DNA from: Meiothermus sp. | GTDB taxonomy: Bacteria > Deinococcota > Deinococci > Deinococcales > Thermaceae | Reading direction: 5' to 3' | DNA length: 64,000 nucleotides | Assembly (NCBI RefSeq): GCF_026004115.1 | Contig: NZ_BPIM01000001.1 | Coordinates: 1,054,001-1,118,000, forward strand | In this document: piece after piece, positions 11,285 through 39,268 of the stretch | Numbering within the stretch: the first letter of the stretch is position 1 | Layout: the number at the start of each line of letters is the position of its first letter | Notes under the pieces: generated by a model | What the model was told of the DNA's origin: nothing | The model's database searches: none | What the model saw: the letters and a program-made list of their open reading frames with translations, nothing else | Translations under genes and position numbers: made by a program

Positions 11285-11938
11285 ATGAATTTTGAAGATC
11301 TTTTGACGTCAGCTAAAAGCACTGTGCGAATACTCGGGAAGCCCTGGGATAAACGCCTCGAGGTCATCCTAAGCTATTGCTGGCAAAGTCCTAAACAAGG
11401 AGCATTTCCCAAAATTGGGAGGCTCAGTCTACTCGAGAATACCAGTGCTTACCTGGAGCGTTACATTGAACGATATTTTCAAGCTCAAGAGCAAAAGTTA
11501 TACCTGCGAGAAGTAAAAACCAGTGCGGATCCTGCCTTGGGCGTCATCCTTGGGGCATTTGCTAAGGTGGAGAACTTACCAAAGGCTACAGAACACCACC
11601 GCATTTCCATGGCCGCTGAGAACCTGCTGGGTGAATTGTTGGAACGCTACATTGCCGAGCGCCTCGAGCCGTATGGCTGGGTCTGGTGCGCCGGTAACAC
11701 TGTCCGATCGGTTGATTTTCTTCGCCAAGACCTCAGTATTGCGCTGCAGATTAAGAACCGGGACAACAGCGAAAACAGTTCCTCTTCGGCTATTCGTGCG
11801 GGAACGAACATCCAGAAGTGGTTTCGCATTTACTCAAAAACTGGCAAAACCAACTGGGAAAACTTTCCTTTTGGGGAAGGTCTGAGCGAGGAAGATTTTC
11901 ACAGGTATATCCAAAATTACGCAAAAAGCCTAAAATAA
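11285..11938 (+). CDS. SinI-like type II restriction endonuclease
   Basis: A 217-residue protein whose C-terminal half resembles the SinI/AvaII group of type II nucleases (recognition GGWCC). The helix MAAENLLGELLERYIA is followed by WCAGNTVRSVDF (Asp144), LQIKNRDNSENSSSSAIR (Lys157) and GTNIQKWFR. The nuclease core reads D...QxK rather than D...ExK. It lies 12 bp after the desaturase gene and 4 bp before a cytosine-5 methyltransferase, a compact type II pair. The coding sequence is less GC-rich than the neighbours, consistent with transfer. Family assignment is from memory of conserved strings; target GGWCC is inference. Confidence 0.68.
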   Translation: MNFEDLLTSAKSTVRILGKPWDKRLEVILSYCWQSPKQGAFPKIGRLSLLENTSAYLERYIERYFQAQEQKLYLREVKTSADPALGVILGAFAKVENLPKATEHHRISMAAENLLGELLERYIAERLEPYGWVWCAGNTVRSVDFLRQDLSIALQIKNRDNSENSSSSAIRAGTNIQKWFRIYSKTGKTNWENFPFGEGLSEEDFHRYIQNYAKSLK

Positions 11939-11942
11939 TAGC

Positions 11943-13088
11943 ATGCATCGCTTATCGCATATTTCTCTGTTCTCGGGGGCGATGGGTTTGGACTTAGGCT
12001 TGGAGCAAGCAGGTTTTGAAACGCGGGCCTTTGTTGAACTTGACCCCATGGCTCACTTAACTATTTACCATAATCTAGATCGCCTCGGTAGGAAGGCAGT
12101 GGTTTTTGAAGACGTAACGCAAGTAACCGCTAAAGATTTGCTAGATGCAACAAATTTACAAGTTGGTGAAGTCACGCTGGTTTCAGGTGGGCCTCCTTGC
12201 CAGCCCTTCAGCACCGCTGGTCGCCGTACAGCCATACAAGATCCAAGAGGTAGCTTATTCCGTGATTTTGTTCGCCTCATCGAAGGCATTCGACCGCGTT
12301 TTTTTGTGATGGAAAATGTGCGGGGTTTACTCTCAGCAGCCATACGCCACCGTCCTATTGCACAACGAGGTAAGGAAGCCCGTCCGTTGGAACCCGACGA
12401 GTTACCAGGTTCAGCTTTTCAAGTCATTTTAGACGAGTTTACTCGCCTCGGTTACACCTATGTATATGGTCTCCTTAACGCTGCAAATTATGGCGTACCG
12501 CAGATACGCGAACGAGTAATTATCATCGGAAGTCGCGATCACGAGCCGATTGCTCTACCCAAACCTACTCACAGCCAGAGCGGATTAGGGCTTCCAAGGT
12601 GGCGTACTCTAAGAGAAGCCCTCGCAAACCTACGCGACCCCGAGCCCCTATTTCCACCTTATCCCGATTCGCGCTTGCGATTCCTTCGGCTGATCCCTGA
12701 AGGTGGTAACTGGCGAAACTTGCCGCGTGAACTGCTTCCAGAAGCCATGGGAGGGGCGCTTGGCTCCGCTGGAGGGAAGGTAGGCTTCTATCGTCGCTTA
12801 GCCTGGGATAAACCGTCTCCTACAATCACAACAAGCCCTGCTCAAAAAGCCACCGATATGTGCCATCCTACTGAATTACGGCCCATTAGCGTCCGTGAGG
12901 CTGCGCGTATTCAGGGGTTTCCTGACGACTGGATTTTTTGTGGCTCGATGACCGATCAGTACCGCCAAATTGGAAATGCTGTTCCTCCATGCTTAGGAAA
13001 AGCTATTGGGGATTCCATAATTGCAACCATCAAGGGAGAGCATAAATCTACTGCTATTCAGGCTGGACTGTTTGAGCTGGCAAGTTAA
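11943..13088 (+). CDS. DNA cytosine-5 methyltransferase of the second restriction-modification pair
   Basis: A 381-residue C5 methyltransferase with the motifs in canonical order: SAM-binding FSGAMGLDLG (10-19), catalytic GGPPCQPFS with Cys86, ENVRG (124-128), PQIRERVIIIG, a target-recognition region (about 200-290), and GNAVPP (344-349). Cys86 attacks C6 of the target cytosine, allowing methyl transfer to C5. The gene follows the SinI-like nuclease by four bases and presumably protects the same sites. No controller (C) protein gene is present, so timing of nuclease expression must be handled otherwise. Confidence 0.93.
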   Translation: MHRLSHISLFSGAMGLDLGLEQAGFETRAFVELDPMAHLTIYHNLDRLGRKAVVFEDVTQVTAKDLLDATNLQVGEVTLVSGGPPCQPFSTAGRRTAIQDPRGSLFRDFVRLIEGIRPRFFVMENVRGLLSAAIRHRPIAQRGKEARPLEPDELPGSAFQVILDEFTRLGYTYVYGLLNAANYGVPQIRERVIIIGSRDHEPIALPKPTHSQSGLGLPRWRTLREALANLRDPEPLFPPYPDSRLRFLRLIPEGGNWRNLPRELLPEAMGGALGSAGGKVGFYRRLAWDKPSPTITTSPAQKATDMCHPTELRPISVREAARIQGFPDDWIFCGSMTDQYRQIGNAVPPCLGKAIGDSIIATIKGEHKSTAIQAGLFELAS

Positions 13089-16474: not shown

Positions 16475-17698
16475 CTAGAGCAAGCGGGCAACCTCACCAA
16501 AGGGAAAAGCGCCGGACTCGAGCCCCCCCGGGGCCACCACCCACAGGGTGGGGAGTTGCGGGGCCTCTGGGGGAAAGTCGCCGTAGCCGTCGGTCAGATA
16601 CACACACACCCCTTCCGACTGGCGACCTATGCGGTCAAAAAACGGGCGGAAATCGGTGCCGCCGCCCCCCTGGGGCGGGGGGATTTCGTCGCCCGGCTGC
16701 AGCACATAGGGGCCGTATAGGGCAGCATCGGCGTAGAAGAGCTGGGCCGTGAGGTGCGGGTAGGCCCCCAGGATGCCCTGTACCTCGCCCAGAAAGCGTT
16801 GGATGAGGATATCGTCCACTGAACCCGAGGTATCCACAGCGATGTATACCGGCAGACGCTCGCCCTCGAGGGTCTCCAGGTACCAGCCCCGCCCCACGTG
16901 GCGGCGGTCGTAGCCGGCAAAGTCGGTGGGGGTGCGCACCAGAAACCGCCACAGCAGGGTTTTCCAGTCCAGTTCTGGCGGCTGCAAAAGTCCAAAAGCC
17001 CGCTCGAGGCCCGCTGGCAGACTGCCCTTGCCCTGGCTACGGGCAACGGCCTGGGCCTGCTGGATGGCTTTCTTCCAGTGCTTCTCGATTGCGGCCTTCT
17101 CGGCCTCGCACAGGGCGTCGCTGCCCAGGCGCTTTTTGCCGCGGAACAGCTTACCCTTGTCCTTTGGCTGGCCTTGACCCTCTTTTGCCTCAGCACCTTC
17201 GGACTTTGCATCGTTTGGGGGGGCCTCGAGCAAATCCAGTACCACCGGCTCTTGTGGCCTGGGCAACAGAGCGTAGACCTCCTCAACGGCGCGGTGCTCG
17301 AGCTCGGTGTTGCGCAGATGCCCCTCCGGCAGGCCGAAGCCGTTGTGCAGCAGGATGCCATTGACCACAATGTCTGCGGCAATGTTCCAGCGCTCCGGGT
17401 CGCGGTGCGAGCGGCGGGTCACGTGCAGCAGAGCAGCGTGCAGGACCTCGTGCAGCAGCACCCCATCGAAGTGCTCGTCGGAAAGGGCCGCCATGAAGCG
17501 GGGGTTGTAGAAAACGTCGCGCCCATCGGTGGCTGCGGTGGGGAGTTCCAGGCTGGGCCGGTAGTGGGCAAAGAGGGCCAGGGTGGCCAAAAAGGGCGAG
17601 CGCTTGCGCAGGCGAAACAGGCTGGCGCTGATACGGCGGTCGAGCACGGGCGGTGCAGTGGGAATCCGGGATGGAGGGTTCTTTTCGACTTCGGACAT
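16475..17698 (-). CDS. DUF2201-type putative metallopeptidase with VWA-like domain
   Basis: A 407-residue two-domain protein. The N-terminal part has a metallopeptidase-like motif LLHEVLHAALLH (HEVLH 83-87) as in DUF2201. A charged linker rich in Lys/Glu/Gly follows (about 160-225). The C-terminal part is a VWA-like fold with a MIDAS-type DTSGS (289-293), GGTDFRPFF and LTDGYGD. ATG 17698 is chosen because GAGGTTGAA precedes it. It is the last gene of a unit with an AAA+ ATPase and an LRV-repeat protein. MoxR-type ATPases habitually work with VWA proteins as chaperone- or metal-insertion-like pairs, which is the likely logic here. The biological target is unknown. Confidence 0.82.
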   Translation of the reverse strand: MSEVEKNPPSRIPTAPPVLDRRISASLFRLRKRSPFLATLALFAHYRPSLELPTAATDGRDVFYNPRFMAALSDEHFDGVLLHEVLHAALLHVTRRSHRDPERWNIAADIVVNGILLHNGFGLPEGHLRNTELEHRAVEEVYALLPRPQEPVVLDLLEAPPNDAKSEGAEAKEGQGQPKDKGKLFRGKKRLGSDALCEAEKAAIEKHWKKAIQQAQAVARSQGKGSLPAGLERAFGLLQPPELDWKTLLWRFLVRTPTDFAGYDRRHVGRGWYLETLEGERLPVYIAVDTSGSVDDILIQRFLGEVQGILGAYPHLTAQLFYADAALYGPYVLQPGDEIPPPQGGGGTDFRPFFDRIGRQSEGVCVYLTDGYGDFPPEAPQLPTLWVVAPGGLESGAFPFGEVARLL

Positions 17699-17723
17699 TT
17701 CAACCTCGCGCAAGTCGTCTGGA

Positions 17724-20399
17724 TTATGAACCGCCAGCCCTCGATCTTAGACGCTCTACGGCCCTGTTCCGCACCAGTCGGTTGCCGTCCTGGGCCAAGC
17801 GCTCCAGCACTGTGGCGGGCGTATTGGGGTTCTGGGCCACCGCGTAGCGCACCAGCCACTCCGGGGCAGCCCAGTGGCGCACCTTGGATAACTCCTGCGC
17901 AGGGATGTGAGGCCCGGCCAGGGCCACCGCGCGGTTCAAAGCAAAGGGCGACCTCGAGGCGGCCAGCGCCAGCCGGGCGCGGTACACCGCCAGGGTCTGG
18001 GGGTCGAGGTGGGGGTTCTGCAGGGCTGCGAGGCGCACGTTTTCGTCTGTATCCCGCAGCAGAACACCCAGGGTAGCCTGGGGGGTCTGGGGGTGCTGGG
18101 CCACGGCCTGGCGCACATCCCGGTCGGCGTCCTGGGCCAGAATGGCCAGCATTTCGGGGCCGAGGGCCGGGTTCCTGGCCAGCGCCTGCCGCACCGTCCA
18201 CTCGCCGTCGAAGAGCAGGTCTTGCAAAGTCGAGGGCGGCGTGGCCGGGTTTTGTGCAGCCAGGGTGCGGCCCCAGACACCCTGCTGGGCCAGTTGCTGC
18301 AAGAACCGGCCTTCCAGGCCCGGATCGAGGGCCTCGGCCCGGCGGTACTGCGCCACCAGGTCGGCCGGGGCACGGGGGTGGGCCTGAGCCGCTTGCCGTA
18401 CCTGCTCGTCGGGGTCGGCCAGCAGTCTGTGCAGGGCGGGCACGGGGGTGAGGGGGTGCTCGGCTACCCGCAGCCGAATGTCCTGCGGGTCGTCGTTGGC
18501 CAGACGCCCCAAAATTTCTGCGGTCACCTGCGGGTGCATCAGCACCGCCCGCCGCACATCGGCATCGGGGTCTTGCGAGAGCAAAAACAGCAGGTCGCGG
18601 TTCACACCCGGGTTGGAGGCCAGGGCTTGGCGCACCCGCCAGTCGGGATCCTGGGCCAGGACGCTCTGGGTATGAAAAGGGGTCAAGGGGTGCTGGGCAG
18701 CCAGGCGTCGGGCCCACTCGTTGCCTTGGGCCAGCCTGTCCAGCAGTGCTGGCGGCAGGGGCTCTGCGAGTTTAGCTCTTCGGAAAAACTCCACCAAACC
18801 CATTTCCACCTGCGGTTCCAGACCTTCAAGAAGCAAACGCAAGGCCCCTTCCGGCACCCGGGGGTGGTCGGCTACGGCCTGGCGTACGTCGCGGTCGGGG
18901 TCCTGGGCCAGTTGGTACAGTACCTCGACAGGGGTGGAGGGGCGGGCCGCTACCGCCTGGCGCACCCGCCAGTGGTCGTCCTGGGCTAGTTGTAAAACCA
19001 CCGGCAGGGGGGTCTGGGCGTTCTGGGCCACCTGGGCCCGCACGTCGGGCTGCTCGTCGTGGGCCAGGGCTTGCAGGCTTTCCGGCGGGGTAAAGGGGTG
19101 TACCGCCACCGCCTGTCGCACGTCGGGATCGGTATCGGCGGCCATGGCGGCCAGGGTGGCGGCAGGGGTATGGGGGTGGCGGGCCACTGCCAGACGGGCG
19201 AGCCAGTCGGGGTCGGTGTGGTAGCGGTGTAAGAACTGCACCGGGGCGTGGGGATGGGCCAGGGCTAGCCGCCGGGTGTGCGCACCCAAGGCGGCCAGGC
19301 GCTGGAGTTCCTGGGGCGAGAGCCGGGGGTCGTGGGATTGAAGCTGCTCTAAGAACCGGCGCATTTGCGAGGGGAGGGCAGGGTTTTGGGCTGCAGCCTG
19401 CCGCACCTCTTCGGATTCATCTGCCAGGAGGCGCTCGAGCAGCCCCGCGGGGCACCGGGGGTTGGCGGCCACCGCCTGTCGTACCTCCCGGTCGCCGTCC
19501 TGGGCCAGCGTCTCGAGCCAGGCCACAGGCAGGCCCGGGTTGCCAGCCGCGGCGATGCGCACCCGCCAGTCGTCGTCGGTGGTCAGGCGCTCCAGTAGCG
19601 AGGGCGGGGTTTGGGGGTGCCGGGCCACCAGCGCACGCACCCAGGGGGTGGCCTGAACCAGGGTCTCCAGGGGCATCTCCACCGGAAGCCCGGCCTCCAG
19701 CCGCTCCACCCAGTTCAGGGTCTGGTGGGGGGTAGCCGGATGCTGGCGGGCCGCTTTGCGTACCGTCTCCTCTTCATCGAGCAGGAAGGCTTCCAGCACC
19801 GCTTTAGGCAGGTCGGCCTGTTCCAGGAGGGCTAAGCGCAGGCCGGGGTCGGGCTCGAGGGCCAGGCGCGGGGCCAGCCAGGCCGGGGTCATGCCCAGCA
19901 GCACCATCTGTCGCAGCTCGAGGTAGTCCATGTCCGCTTCGCACCAACCCAGGGCCGCCTCCAGGGGCTCGCTTTCGAAGCCCACGTGCAGCCGGGCCGC
20001 CTCGGCCACCCCCGGCAGGGCATGATCGGTTAGGGCCTCTACAAGCTCGAGGGGCGCCTGTGGATTGCGCAGCACGCTGAGCACAGCACCATAGTCGCCC
20101 TCCCGCACCGCCCAGCGCAGGAAATGCGAGGAAGCCTCGGGGCTGCCCAGCAAGCGCAGACGGGCATATCCTGGAAGCTCGGCCAGCCAGTTGGCATTCA
20201 CCAGCAAGAACAGATCCAGCACCGGGTTGCCCAGCACTGCTTCGGGAAAGTGCACCGCCAGCCGCCAAAGCACCGCTTCGGGGGTATTGGGGTTAGCCGC
20301 CACCGCACGGCGGATTTCGGCTTCGGGCCGAGCGGCCAGAGCCCGCAGCCGCTCGGGCGGGGTCTGGGGGTTCTGGGCTTCTTCAAGCAAGGCCTTCAT
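17724..20399 (-). CDS. Large LRV (leucine-rich repeat variant) repeat protein
   Basis: An 891-residue solenoid built from about two dozen ~24-residue repeats of the pattern LAxDxDxxVRxAVAxNPxTP, the signature of the LRV family first noted beside the Azotobacter nif genes. The four-cysteine iron-sulfur segment of that protein is not visible here. Repeats cover almost the whole length; a less regular segment at about 50-180 and one near 540-560 may be hinges. No signal peptide or membrane span is seen, so it is cytoplasmic. It lies between a MoxR-like ATPase gene (49 bp upstream) and the DUF2201/VWA gene (25 bp downstream), and probably acts as the adaptor or scaffold of that pair. ATG 20399 is used; GTG 20405 is possible. 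Confidence 0.85.
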   Translation of the reverse strand: MKALLEEAQNPQTPPERLRALAARPEAEIRRAVAANPNTPEAVLWRLAVHFPEAVLGNPVLDLFLLVNANWLAELPGYARLRLLGSPEASSHFLRWAVREGDYGAVLSVLRNPQAPLELVEALTDHALPGVAEAARLHVGFESEPLEAALGWCEADMDYLELRQMVLLGMTPAWLAPRLALEPDPGLRLALLEQADLPKAVLEAFLLDEEETVRKAARQHPATPHQTLNWVERLEAGLPVEMPLETLVQATPWVRALVARHPQTPPSLLERLTTDDDWRVRIAAAGNPGLPVAWLETLAQDGDREVRQAVAANPRCPAGLLERLLADESEEVRQAAAQNPALPSQMRRFLEQLQSHDPRLSPQELQRLAALGAHTRRLALAHPHAPVQFLHRYHTDPDWLARLAVARHPHTPAATLAAMAADTDPDVRQAVAVHPFTPPESLQALAHDEQPDVRAQVAQNAQTPLPVVLQLAQDDHWRVRQAVAARPSTPVEVLYQLAQDPDRDVRQAVADHPRVPEGALRLLLEGLEPQVEMGLVEFFRRAKLAEPLPPALLDRLAQGNEWARRLAAQHPLTPFHTQSVLAQDPDWRVRQALASNPGVNRDLLFLLSQDPDADVRRAVLMHPQVTAEILGRLANDDPQDIRLRVAEHPLTPVPALHRLLADPDEQVRQAAQAHPRAPADLVAQYRRAEALDPGLEGRFLQQLAQQGVWGRTLAAQNPATPPSTLQDLLFDGEWTVRQALARNPALGPEMLAILAQDADRDVRQAVAQHPQTPQATLGVLLRDTDENVRLAALQNPHLDPQTLAVYRARLALAASRSPFALNRAVALAGPHIPAQELSKVRHWAAPEWLVRYAVAQNPNTPATVLERLAQDGNRLVRNRAVERLRSRAGGS

Positions 20400-20448
20400 A
20401 CGCACTTCGATTCCACCCCACAGGGCCTTCGGGGCTATCCCCCGCCGC

Positions 20449-21444
20449 TCAGCCCAGTACCAGTTCCCGGTAATCCTCGAGGTAGGCCCGCAGGCGGGGC
20501 TCTTCGTGTATCAGCAGGGCAAACTCTCCCACCCCGTGCTGCTTTAGCCGCGTATACAGGTCGGACACCAGTAGCTGTACCCATTCTGTGGGGGCCACCT
20601 CGACCATCCAGCGGAAGGCGTTCAGGGCCTGGCGGGCGCTTTCGGCGCGAAAGGCCAGCCCCATCGTGAGGGCATAGCGGGCCGAGGGTTCCTCGGGGAA
20701 AGGGGGGCTGGCCTGGCCGTGCAGAATTTCGCTCAGCTCGGGCAGCGCCCGGTAGACCTGCTCGTAGGCCGCGAGTTCGGCAGCAGCAGCCTCGCCCACC
20801 ACCGGGGCGATGTCGAGCCCAGCCTTGAGCAAATGTGAGGCCATCTCCCAGCTCCGGGGACTGGGCCAGGCCGGGCTTTTGGCGTCCATCTGGTGCAACA
20901 GGGCCGGGCGAAAGGCCAGGAAAGCCAGAATGCGCTCGTCAATACCAACCTGCAAGCCATAGGCCTTGAAGCTCTCGTAGTTTGGGGCGACCTCGAGATG
21001 AATGAAGCGGTTGGCCAGCGGGGCCGGCATATCAAACACCGCTGCGCGGTCTTCCTTGCGGTTGCCCGCCGCCCAGACAAACCAGCCCTCCGGCAGCTCA
21101 TACGAGCCCACCTTGCGGTCGAGGATGAGCTGCTGGGCCATGCCCTGCATGGTCGGGGGGGCCATGTTGAGCTCGTCCAGGAACAAAATACCCTCACCCT
21201 CCCGGGGCAAAAACTCGGGCGGATACCACCGTGAAACCCCGTCCAGGGGCACCGGCAGCCCGCGCAGGTCGGTGGGGGCCAGTTGCGAGAGGCGCAAGTC
21301 AATAAAGCCAAGCCCATACTTGCGGGCGGTCTGCGCCACGATGGAGGATTTCCCTACCCCCGGCGGCCCCCATAGCATGGTGGCAATCTGTATACGATGC
21401 TCAATTAGACCCGAAAGGTACTGGGCAAGTTCGGTAGGGCTCAC
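20449..21444 (-). CDS. MoxR-like AAA+ ATPase
   Basis: A 331-residue AAA+ protein of the dynein-related/MoxR type (AAA_5). Walker A is WGPPGVGKSS (25-34), Walker B ILFLDELN (86-93), and a sensor-1 asparagine occurs in VWAAGNRKED; PLANRFIHLEV is the arginine-finger region. The remainder is a helical lid. The start is GTG 21444. It heads a compact unit with the LRV and DUF2201/VWA proteins; the ATPase probably remodels a substrate presented by the VWA partner. The family relationship is firm; the job of this particular trio is not known to me. Confidence 0.87.
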   Translation of the reverse strand: MSPTELAQYLSGLIEHRIQIATMLWGPPGVGKSSIVAQTARKYGLGFIDLRLSQLAPTDLRGLPVPLDGVSRWYPPEFLPREGEGILFLDELNMAPPTMQGMAQQLILDRKVGSYELPEGWFVWAAGNRKEDRAAVFDMPAPLANRFIHLEVAPNYESFKAYGLQVGIDERILAFLAFRPALLHQMDAKSPAWPSPRSWEMASHLLKAGLDIAPVVGEAAAAELAAYEQVYRALPELSEILHGQASPPFPEEPSARYALTMGLAFRAESARQALNAFRWMVEVAPTEWVQLLVSDLYTRLKQHGVGEFALLIHEEPRLRAYLEDYRELVLG

Positions 21445-36421: not shown

Positions 36422-39268
36422 CTATATGTGTACAGTGCGGTGCGGATCCCCCGTAGCCGTAAACGCCGACCAGAAGTAGGGGTTGGGATACTCCCGGCGC
36501 AACACCAGTTGGGCCTCGCGCAGGGCCGTAGCCACCGTCATCCCCGCCCGCAGGTTGGTATAAAAGGTGGTCATGAACCTGGCGGTAGCATCGTCGCGTA
36601 CCGGCCACAAGCTGGCAATCAAGCAGGGCGCACCTGCATAAAGGAATCCCCGCGCCAGACCCATCAGTTCGTCGCCGCTGGTTTGCTTGGCCAGACCCGT
36701 CTCGCAGGCCGAGAGCACCACCAACTCGGCCCCCAGGCGCAGGTTATAGAGATCGCGGGCCGCCAGCCAGCCGTCGGTCATACGCAGCCCGGAAAACATA
36801 GGGTTGTCGGGGCGGAAAGCCCCGTGGGTGGCGATGTGCAAGACCTCGGCCTGGGGTGCGGCCGCAAAGAAGTTTTGTAGTGTGGCCGCCTCACCCACAA
36901 ACTTGTGGGGGGTCTGGGCAATCTGGCTGATCTGTTCCACTTCGAGGGTAGCCTGGGGAATGTTTTCGATAGGCACGCCAAAAGCCACCAGCGAGCCGGG
37001 GTCGTGCCGAACACGTTTACGGCACAAGGCGTACACCGCCGCGCTGGGCGAGAGGGAAAGCTCTGCACGGTCGAGTAGGTATTGTTCGCCATCATATAAA
37101 GCTGCAAAAGGCACCGCGTGGAGTATCCCGTGCGGGACGATAATGAGGGGCTGGCCGGAGAGTTGGAGCGGGAGGGGTTCGATGAGTAGCTGGTAAAGGG
37201 CATGGAGTTGGTCGTCTACCGAGCGCTTGAGGGCTTCCTCACCATATATCTTCAGCATTATGCCGCCTTGAGCGACCCGGCTGAGAAAGAACTCGAGCTG
37301 TTCGACGTGCTGCTGAACCTGCTCGAGGGTGCCCAGCCCCCGTACCGCCTCGACGCGACCCCCGTCCACCACAAAGGCCATCAGACCCTCGCGGGTATGG
37401 AAGTACTCGAGCAGGGTGGTGCCGGGCTCCAAGGTTTGCTGCAGTTCGTGCAGGCGAAGCTCCTGCACCTGTTCGACCATGACGATTTCGGGCTGGAGGC
37501 GCTCAAGCTCGCGGATGAGCTGTGTGACCCGCTCCTCCAGAGCCACCATTTTTTCCCAGTTGTTGCCACGGATTCCCGTTGCCGCTTCGGCTTCTACCGC
37601 CAGGAAGTGCTGGTTGAGCTCCTGGCGCGCCTGGGCGAGTTCCTGTTGCAAGCGTTCAACCTCGGGGTCGGCTGAGCTGCGCGGGCTTTCGCCGCCACGG
37701 GCCAGCAGGTCTACCAGGGCCCGCGACTTGGCGCGTTCGGCATATTCGAAGGCTTCACGGGAGTGCTTTGTGTCCAGAAGCAAGTTCACCAGGTCGCCGT
37801 AGACCTCCAGCTTATCGCCCAGGTAAGCCGACTTGAACTCGTCCACGCTGAGGCTGGCCCGCACGCCCTCGAGGCGCTCGATGGCGCGTTTGAAGTGCAG
37901 TTCGGCGGCCTGGGTGCGGTTCTCCAGCAGGGCCATCTGACCGCGCAGGCGTTCGATGCGGATGGTGAGGTCGGGGATGCCCAGCCCCACGGCCAGTGAG
38001 GCGGCCTCTTCCAGGCAGCGCTTGGCCTCCGGGCGGTTGCCCAGCTCCAGCAGGGCTTCGGCCATCACGCTCAGGCCCAGGGCCTTGGCTGAGGGCACCT
38101 CGCTCAGGGCCTCAATGGCCCGACCCGCTATCAGCACAGCCTGCTCGAGGGCGGCCATCTGGCCCTGGCGGCCCGATTCCAAAAACAACGAGGCCACCGA
38201 AACATCTACCAGTGCCGCCTGGATGGCGTTTTGCAGGGACAACCAGCCCTCCCGCGCCCGTTCCAGGGTCTGGCGGGCTTCCTCGAGTCTGCCCTGCTTG
38301 GCCTGGGCGCCCCCCAGGGTGGTCAGGGCCTCGGCCTGCTCCATCTGCATACCCCGCGCCGCAAAAACCTCCACCAGTTCCTGAGAGAGCTTGCGGGCTT
38401 CCGACAGCAGGTTTAGATCGAGGTGGATGCGGGCCTCCTCGAGCTGGGCAAAGGCCGCGTTGGGGTTGCCATTGAGCCTGCCATACATGGCCCGCACCCG
38501 GCTCAAAAGATCCAGGGCCTGGTTCAGTCGGCCTTCCTTTCGGTAAAGCAGGGCCAGATTCACGCTGTTGCCGATAAAGTCTTCGGTCAGGTTGTGGGTA
38601 CGAAAAATGTCCAGGGCGGTCTGGTAATGGGCCACCGCCTCGCGGTAGCGATCCTGGGCCTCGTAAATCAGGGCCAGGTTGCCGTGGGCCTTACCCTGGC
38701 CTACCACATCCCCCACCCTCGAGAGTTGTTCCAGCGCATTCTTGATGGCGCTCTCGGCCTCGAGCATCCGCCCTGAGCGGTAGTGAATGATGCCAATGTT
38801 GATGCTCACCAATGCTGCATCGCGAAACAGCCCCAGCCCCATAAAGGCCTCGCGGGTTTTTTCCGCCAGGGCCAGGGCTCCGCTCATGTCGCCCATAACC
38901 GCCAGGGCCTGGATCTGCCGCATTCCAGCGCGGGTCGCGTCTTCCTCGTATCCCAGGCTTTGCAGCCCCTTGCGGGCTTCTTCATAGACGGGGATAGACT
39001 CGGCAAAATTGCCGCGTACCGTCAGGCCTACCGCATAGGCCCACAGGGCCAGCGGGCGGGCCCTGGCGTCGTGGACATGGGCTGCGACTTCTACAGCCCG
39101 TTCCCCTGCCAGCAAGGCCCTGGCGGTATCCACGTCTTTTTGACGGTCTACTTCCGCCTTGAGAACCTCGATTAATTCAATCGCTGGCATGGTCTGCTGT
39201 AAACGCGCCTGCCTTTTGGCTGGATCAGGCTCGTCCATCAGATACCGGGCCAGGTCAATGGTATTCAT
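36422..39268 (-). CDS. TPR-CHAT caspase-like protease
   Basis: A 948-residue cytoplasmic protein. Residues ~60-500 are tetratricopeptide repeats (for example HGNLALIYEAQDRYREAVAHYQTAL), followed by a coiled region (~540-620, rich in Glu/Gln). The C-terminal ~300 residues form a CHAT domain (caspase HetF associated with TPRs). The catalytic dyad is His815 in LHIATHGAF and Cys855 in VVLSACETGLA; the terminal motif NPYFWSAFTATGD is also typical. CHAT proteases cleave specific protein partners when triggered through their TPR part; relatives include CRISPR-linked Craspase and bacterial death-type effectors. It is the last gene of a block with a GGDEF protein, two small proteins and a subtilase. 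A GTAAAC-N12-GTTTAC inverted repeat (39304-39327) precedes it. Confidence 0.9.
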   Translation of the reverse strand: MNTIDLARYLMDEPDPAKRQARLQQTMPAIELIEVLKAEVDRQKDVDTARALLAGERAVEVAAHVHDARARPLALWAYAVGLTVRGNFAESIPVYEEARKGLQSLGYEEDATRAGMRQIQALAVMGDMSGALALAEKTREAFMGLGLFRDAALVSINIGIIHYRSGRMLEAESAIKNALEQLSRVGDVVGQGKAHGNLALIYEAQDRYREAVAHYQTALDIFRTHNLTEDFIGNSVNLALLYRKEGRLNQALDLLSRVRAMYGRLNGNPNAAFAQLEEARIHLDLNLLSEARKLSQELVEVFAARGMQMEQAEALTTLGGAQAKQGRLEEARQTLERAREGWLSLQNAIQAALVDVSVASLFLESGRQGQMAALEQAVLIAGRAIEALSEVPSAKALGLSVMAEALLELGNRPEAKRCLEEAASLAVGLGIPDLTIRIERLRGQMALLENRTQAAELHFKRAIERLEGVRASLSVDEFKSAYLGDKLEVYGDLVNLLLDTKHSREAFEYAERAKSRALVDLLARGGESPRSSADPEVERLQQELAQARQELNQHFLAVEAEAATGIRGNNWEKMVALEERVTQLIRELERLQPEIVMVEQVQELRLHELQQTLEPGTTLLEYFHTREGLMAFVVDGGRVEAVRGLGTLEQVQQHVEQLEFFLSRVAQGGIMLKIYGEEALKRSVDDQLHALYQLLIEPLPLQLSGQPLIIVPHGILHAVPFAALYDGEQYLLDRAELSLSPSAAVYALCRKRVRHDPGSLVAFGVPIENIPQATLEVEQISQIAQTPHKFVGEAATLQNFFAAAPQAEVLHIATHGAFRPDNPMFSGLRMTDGWLAARDLYNLRLGAELVVLSACETGLAKQTSGDELMGLARGFLYAGAPCLIASLWPVRDDATARFMTTFYTNLRAGMTVATALREAQLVLRREYPNPYFWSAFTATGDPHRTVHI

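Follow-up and report, generated by a model that had tools for sequence, protein, structure and literature searches.

Three genes lie close together on the minus strand of the window, by which we mean the whole stretch of 64,000 nucleotides of Meiothermus sp. (contig NZ_BPIM01000001.1) that was analysed, and they are transcribed in the order MoxR, LRV and DUF2201 (Table 1). They encode a MoxR-type AAA+ ATPase, a leucine-rich repeat variant (LRV) protein, and a protein in which a putative metallopeptidase domain (DUF2201_N) is joined to a VWA-like domain (DUF2201). The open reading frames and the spacing of 25 to 49 bp given in the original prediction are correct with the ATG codons at 20399 and 17698 as starts, which leave 49 bp between MoxR and LRV and 25 bp between LRV and DUF2201. 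The sequence GAGG stands 5' of the ATG of the DUF2201 gene, and a promoter scan gave nothing above chance. According to Pfam, the trio is flanked upstream by a CYTH protein gene and downstream by the gene of a threonine-dehydratase-type PLP enzyme that includes an ACT domain. A search against NCBIfam was uninformative for the MoxR, LRV and DUF2201 proteins. In comparisons with close relatives, dN/dS was 0.04-0.14 for MoxR, 0.16-0.24 for DUF2201 and highest, at 0.20-0.37, for LRV. Because these values are well below 1, which indicates purifying selection, the three reading frames are real, selected genes.

Table 1. Positions of the genes and motifs of the trio in the window, and of the LRV protein on the Synechocystis plasmid pSYSA
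Feature	Position	Strand	Basis
MoxR-type AAA+ ATPase, 331 aa, GTG start, transcribed first	20449..21444	-	Pfam AAA_5 and AAA; conserved motifs
Walker A, GPPGVGKS, residues 26-33	21346..21369	-	Translation; conserved in relatives
Walker B acidic pair, D90 E91	21172..21177	-	Invariant in 29 relatives
LRV protein, ~890 residues from ATG	17724..20399	-	Pfam LRV and LRV_2
DUF2201_N putative metallopeptidase and DUF2201 VWA-like protein, 407 residues, ATG at 17698	16475..17698	-	Pfam
Predicted zinc site HEVLHxxxxH...NxAxD (H83, E84, H87, H92, N105, D109)	17372..17452	-	Alignment
MIDAS motif DTSGS (D289-S293)	16820..16834	-	Invariant in 53 sequences
LRV protein WP_011153692 of pSYSA and the MoxR-DUF2201 pair close to it	L179 5267-7183 and 11353-13631

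Motifs and predicted folds of the three proteins

The ATPase matches the Pfam families AAA_5 and AAA, both above the curated cut-offs, and its homologues carry the annotation 'MoxR family ATPase'. Across 29 MoxR relatives from several phyla, G26, P28, G29, G31 and K32 of Walker A are invariant, as are the Walker B pair, N128 and R146, the last two being assigned as sensor 1 and arginine finger, respectively, by position and not by structure. The nearest solved relatives of the ATPase by sequence are the midasins (E 4e-9). MoxR ATPases act together with VWA proteins that bear a metal ion-dependent adhesion site (MIDAS) to remodel client proteins, as in NorQD and RavA-ViaA, and midasin does so in eukaryotes.

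The DUF2201 protein scored 140.1 bits against DUF2201_N (PF13203; gathering score 23.2) and 64.1 bits against DUF2201 (PF09967; gathering score 26.4). In 53 DUF2201 relatives, H83, H87, H92 and D109 of the predicted zinc site are invariant, and so are the MIDAS residues D289, S291, S293, T348 and D370. The Walker A and B motifs, HEVLH and DTSGS, which had been noticed at this one locus, are thereby found conserved in alignments of 29 MoxR and 53 DUF2201 proteins. At the level of sequence, the protein has the HExxH motif plus a further ligand by which zinc metallopeptidases are recognized, with H92 and D109 as candidates for the third ligand. E84 is replaced in just two of the 53 relatives, by Q in L159 and by L in L066, and because these two lack the catalytic glutamate, proteolysis may be dispensable in some lineages. 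In the structural model (pLDDT 83), the N-terminal domain is helical and bears the HExxH helix, and the C-terminal domain is a VWA domain that matches solved VWA structures over residues 280-407 with a Z score of ~13. Foldseek matches include the MIDAS structures of Rea1/MDN1 (midasin); all of these structural matches concern the VWA part alone. A sequence search of the PDB with the DUF2201 profile gave no significant match (nothing at E <0.6).

The LRV protein scored 262.9 bits against LRV (PF01816), a family of tandem repeats of 24-26 residues, over 17 stretches and 132.8 bits against LRV_2, both above the cut-offs. We count approximately 20 clear repeat units and several weaker ones, 28 candidates in total, for which the 'about two dozen' originally suggested is a fair figure. 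In the AlphaFold2 model (pLDDT 91.5) the protein is predicted to be helical from end to end and to form a single continuous alpha-solenoid, and its best Foldseek matches are the solenoids of the PP2A scaffold, karyopherin and CAND1, which indicate general architecture only. LRV is the fastest-evolving of the three genes, with, for example, 64-72% identity where MoxR is at 88-91%. Among Meiothermus orthologues its ends are best conserved (0.77-0.79 vs ~0.6 elsewhere), and within the repeat positions 9, 12, 15, 16, 19, 20 and 23 are variable. LRV repeats from different phyla align out of register. All LRV matches in the window genome (G000) fall within this one protein.

The trio in the order of the window and in other Deinococcota

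In the window's order, 61 genomes were examined, of which 27 match DUF2201_N and 24 match LRV. Both occur in 22 genomes, DUF2201 only in five, LRV only in two and neither in 32 (Fisher p 8e-10, not corrected for kinship). Besides Meiothermus, three genera from another family keep the order MoxR-LRV-DUF2201, with LRV identity down to 35%; the locus of one relative is ordered LRV-MoxR-DUF2201 instead. Several Meiothermus species share the chromosomal location of the trio, which is flanked by the CYTH and threonine-dehydratase genes or adjoins the latter; this indicates that the trio is vertically inherited in this genus. LRV is present at every sufficiently complete close Deinococcota locus except that of G022, a genome placed on the tree in the same genus as Calidithermus roseus, where the locus is rearranged and holds LRV fragments only. 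Two further genomes, G016 and G012, were considered as having LRV-free loci and rejected, both having short LRV genes upstream of MoxR. In G055, an LRV_2 match just below the threshold lies downstream.

A short LRV gene together with MoxR and DUF2201 is found in G016, in G012 and on plasmid pTHEOS01 of Thermus oshimai, and in G016 and pTHEOS01 this trio is followed by an unknown gene of approximately 740 residues and then by a UvrD-type helicase gene. The five genes (short LRV, MoxR, DUF2201, the unknown protein of ~740 aa and a helicase that is UvrD/GajB-like) form a cassette in pTHEOS01 (L174 5036-13139) and in L056, which is a candidate mobile or defence cassette.

DUF2201 loci across bacterial phyla

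We then scanned one genome per GTDB species with the DUF2201 alignment as query and analysed the 80 nearest loci among the matches listed, in which LRV was called by a local profile that started from the window's repeats and went through two rounds of refinement. Outside Meiothermus, most DUF2201 genes of these loci have a MoxR homologue next to them, usually at 53-63% identity, and in a few loci where MoxR was missed as a separate gene call it is found by BLAST. LRV genes are present at 44 of the 80 nearest loci; of the 47 loci flanked on each side by 5 kb or more, 26 have one. Counted in genes from DUF2201, position -2, just upstream of MoxR, is taken by LRV in 28 of 58 cases and position -1 in 11 of 22, and LRV is absent from positions +4 to +7; genes were called by a greedy longest-ORF rule, and exact offsets are approximate in GC-rich loci. 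The LRV-positive loci among the nearest 80 belong to seven phyla: Deinococcota, Cyanobacteriota, Chloroflexota, Armatimonadota, Myxococcota, Pseudomonadota and Verrucomicrobiota. In the six phyla besides Deinococcota the gene order differs from that of the window. LRV was confirmed by Pfam in all ten proteins chosen from several phyla for this check.

Ten distant genomes were searched whole. In six of them (G064, G065, G067, G068, G069 and G070) every LRV match is at the locus; of the remaining four, Herpetosiphon has one LRV match elsewhere and the three cyanobacteria have more. At least two LRV gene calls, some of them fragments, are present at 19 of the 80 nearest loci, and LRV genes at the loci range from approximately 100 to 1449 aa, fragments included. 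In Synechocystis sp. PCC 6803, a MoxR-DUF2201 pair (WP_011153698 and WP_011153697, respectively) is on plasmid pSYSA. The LRV protein WP_011153692, annotated as hypothetical, is encoded approximately 4 kb away, and the local profile recognizes 19 LRV units in it (E 1e-111). The MoxR, DUF2201 and LRV genes of pSYSA lie between the CRISPR type I-D genes cas1d/cas2 and toxin-antitoxin genes.

LRV is absent from 21 of the 47 well-flanked loci, which have MoxR-DUF2201 or DUF2201 without it, and the LRV-free loci include those of Anaerolineae, of Prochlorococcus and of one Nostocales clade, three groups in which the MoxR-DUF2201 pair clearly occurs without LRV. Other Pfam-tested neighbours at LRV-free loci are mostly unrelated enzymes. 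On a tree of 97 DUF2201 proteins, LRV presence required 13 changes, compared with a mean of 24.9 and a minimum of 19 in 300 shuffles, a count that is approximate on a quick tree with long branches. These values indicate that LRV presence is heritable, with repeated gains or losses, and because LRV-free clades exist we regard MoxR-DUF2201 as the core and LRV as a frequent, heritable but non-obligatory third part. The idea of the trio as a unit holds in that the trio recurs in at least seven phyla, but LRV is not obligatory to it; the proposed neighbourhood survey did not find LRV absent from most relatives, the outcome that had been named as refuting the idea.

Some other genes and domains recur near these proteins. 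A pentapeptide-repeat gene directly follows DUF2201 in the four LRV-free Nostocales loci checked (L113, L127, L129 and L131). The Nostoc loci L098, L099 and L104 retain LRV, and in L099 a pentapeptide protein and a WD40 protein are encoded between DUF2201 and LRV. In Limnohabitans and in an Acaryochloridaceae genome, LRV proteins encoded beside MoxR/DUF2201 or DUF2201 are fused to a WGR domain (L171 3488-7834 and 10197-12071; L103 808-2796). DUF2201 matches recur on plasmids of Burkholderia and Rhodococcus; on a Burkholderia anthina plasmid (L177 513-1721), a distant DUF2201 protein (33% identity) is encoded directly before VirB-type conjugation genes.

Comparison with known MoxR-VWA systems

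RavA-ViaA, NorQ-NorD and CbbQ-CbbO resemble the window in that a MoxR AAA+ hexamer, which for the window ATPase is expected by analogy, works with a MIDAS-bearing VWA partner to remodel a client complex. To our knowledge, none of these three systems has a metallopeptidase domain or an LRV partner. Midasin (Rea1/MDN1) is likewise an AAA+-MIDAS machine and pulls on its clients; unlike the window proteins, it is a single giant eukaryotic chain with neither protease nor LRV. The E. coli cluster yehF-yehI-yehL-yehM-yehP-yehQ encodes a MoxR protein (YehL) and a VWA protein (YehP) with a WGR protein (YehF) nearby, recalling the two LRV-WGR proteins of Limnohabitans. As single comparisons, however, YehL and YehP match the window proteins at E 0.004 and 0.027, the VWA family is VWA_CoxE and not DUF2201, and there is no LRV match; the yeh cluster was rejected as a homologous core for its too weak similarity. 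MoxR-VWA maturation pairs are also treated in a further source (PMC10585395).

A two-part core of the same layout has been described for the group 2.2 jumbo phages, in which a MoxR AAA+ protein is encoded beside a vWA protein with an N-terminal metallopeptidase and virion assembly has been proposed as the function (Iyer et al. 2021, PMC7824862). The window likewise has MoxR next to a vWA domain fused to an N-terminal metallopeptidase, and the placing of both pairs in one family rests on the homology of DUF2201 to phage proteins. DUF2201 matches were found in 311 phage records (H31-H45 and 296 more), some of them adjoining MoxR, and the best of these reach no more than 35% identity with the window protein. 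Unlike for the window trio, an LRV partner is not mentioned by the authors for the jumbo-phage pair (PMC7824862), and no LRV partner is annotated in the cyanophage stretch inspected. Several phage DUF2201 homologues are annotated 'HNH endonuclease', which is probably a mis-annotation.

In the MoxR-vWA ternary conflict systems, the third part is VMAP, iSTAND, FtsH or a beta-propeller on the vWA protein and is the proposed sensor (Kaur et al. 2020, PMC7159879). These systems and the window trio have in common a MoxR protein, a vWA protein and a third protein that defines the system, with peptidases among the parts. In the window, by contrast, an LRV solenoid takes the third place and goes unmentioned in PMC7159879, the vWA domain is C-terminal and the metallopeptidase N-terminal, unlike in the Kaur systems, and the accessory effector variability of those systems was not seen in the window lineage. 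Links of MoxR-vWA systems with CRISPR loci and with hypermutated sensors have also been described (PMC10910872, PMC10907252). As the original prediction supposed, we found no account of a MoxR-LRV-DUF2201 trio in the open-access literature (subscription journals were outside the scope of the search), and the trio is thus an apparently undescribed MoxR-VWA system with a new third component.

A proposed mechanism and its rivals

We tentatively propose that the trio forms one ATP-driven machine in which the LRV protein would deliver a chosen protein for cleavage or remodelling, a reading that we consider slightly short of probable. As in NorQ-NorD, RavA-ViaA and midasin, a hexameric MoxR AAA+ ring would engage the MIDAS of the DUF2201 protein. 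The LRV solenoid would serve as an adaptor, its variable surface capturing a particular protein target and its more conserved ends docking on the ATPase/VWA core. ATP hydrolysis would then present or unfold the target at the DUF2201_N active site, resulting in limited, target-specific cleavage or remodelling. The target could be a cellular complex or a protein of an invader. Loci with several LRV genes may have several specificities, and LRV-free loci might use another adaptor (a repeat protein, for example a pentapeptide protein) or act directly on the target. The conserved trio, the positional peak of LRV, its co-occurrence with DUF2201, its confinement to this locus in the window genome and in six of the ten distant ones, its heritability, its fast evolution, its better-conserved ends and variable repeat positions, the multi-LRV arrays, the intact motifs and the midasin matches of the ATPase and of the VWA domain all speak for such a machine, and the fast evolution, the predicted solenoid fold and the multi-copy arrays are consistent with LRV as the substrate recogniser that the original prediction proposed. 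Against the adaptor reading, variable surfaces and slower-evolving ends are usual in any repeat protein, and against a machine of which LRV is a part stand the well-flanked loci that lack it.

The main rival to this adaptor machine holds that LRV is the client: a MoxR-DUF2201 maturation pair, like NorQD and CbbQO, would fold, process or load the solenoid, and pairs without LRV would serve other clients. In known MoxR-VWA systems the client gene commonly adjoins the MoxR and VWA genes, and the confinement of all LRV matches to the pair's locus in the window genome and in six of the ten distant genomes is as expected for a dedicated client. We nevertheless think this reading possible but unlikely, in view of the further LRV genes that some cyanobacteria have elsewhere and of the faster evolution and the variable number and length of LRV, which are unusual for a single dedicated client. 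That the trio is instead an anti-invader (conflict) system, in which LRV would sense an invader protein, MoxR would transduce the signal and the DUF2201 protease would be the effector, is suggested by the CRISPR and toxin-antitoxin surroundings of the genes on pSYSA, a plasmid described as specialised for defence (PMC9978351), by the unknown gene and the UvrD/GajB-like helicase gene that follow the trio of pTHEOS01, and by the peptidase-linked vWA and sensor layout known from iSTAND ternary systems (PMC12839542). We consider this improbable, however, since the Meiothermus trio keeps one chromosomal place between housekeeping genes in several species, and some defence genes are expected by chance on plasmids and in cyanobacteria. 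PADLOC likewise has no model that matches LRV or DUF2201, and its one match to the ATPase, IetA, is weak (E 0.026); the third components VMAP, iSTAND, FtsH and beta-propeller are absent from the trio, in which Pfam finds only LRV/HEAT-type repeats or DUF2201 in these positions and the LRV model is all-helical.

The LRV protein of Azotobacter vinelandii has a [4Fe-4S] cluster in a Cys-ligated iron-sulphur domain, which favours yet another reading, namely scaffolding or metallocentre assembly, with LRV carrying a cofactor or subunits and the DUF2201 metalloprotein helping to insert the metal. MoxR-VWA pairs put metals into cNOR (PMC9976466). The window LRV protein, however, has just Cys155 and Cys318 and therefore lacks a four-Cys cluster site, so that an iron-sulphur LRV of the Azotobacter type is unsupported and metallocentre assembly very improbable. 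Coincidental neighbourhood of the three genes has nothing in its favour beyond the existence of LRV-free pairs and is scarcely credible given the seven phyla, the positional peak, the phyletic co-occurrence and the conserved order; we exclude it because several Deinococcota keep the order of the window and six further phyla have the three genes in different orders.

If LRV is indeed the adaptor, the trio might exemplify a widespread, undescribed class of adaptor-programmed AAA+ metalloproteases in which LRV solenoids, interchangeable and fast-evolving, would select the target protein, directed at invaders in some lineages, and thus a bacterial counterpart of solenoid-adaptor-directed proteolysis; we regard this wider proposal as doubtful. 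The poorly understood LRV family gains a candidate functional partner in the MoxR-metallopeptidase pair, and MoxR-VWA systems gain a class of third component built on a programmable-looking alpha-solenoid. MoxR, DUF2201 and an LRV gene are all found on pSYSA of Synechocystis sp. PCC 6803, so that simple deletions in this model organism could put the idea to the test.

Other genes in the window

Approximately 3.4 kb from the trio, the plus strand of the window (11285-13088) encodes a type II restriction-modification pair: a restriction endonuclease of the SinI type (Pfam RE_SinI) and, after it, a C-5 cytosine methyltransferase. The pair is at the same place in the Meiothermus relatives L042, L045 and L051; in L041 and L043 it was not detected between the corresponding flanking genes. 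At 15 kb from the trio, a 948-residue TPR-CHAT protein of the caspase-like peptidase family is encoded on the minus strand (36422-39268); TPR-CHAT proteins have elsewhere been linked to MoxR-vWA conflict systems.
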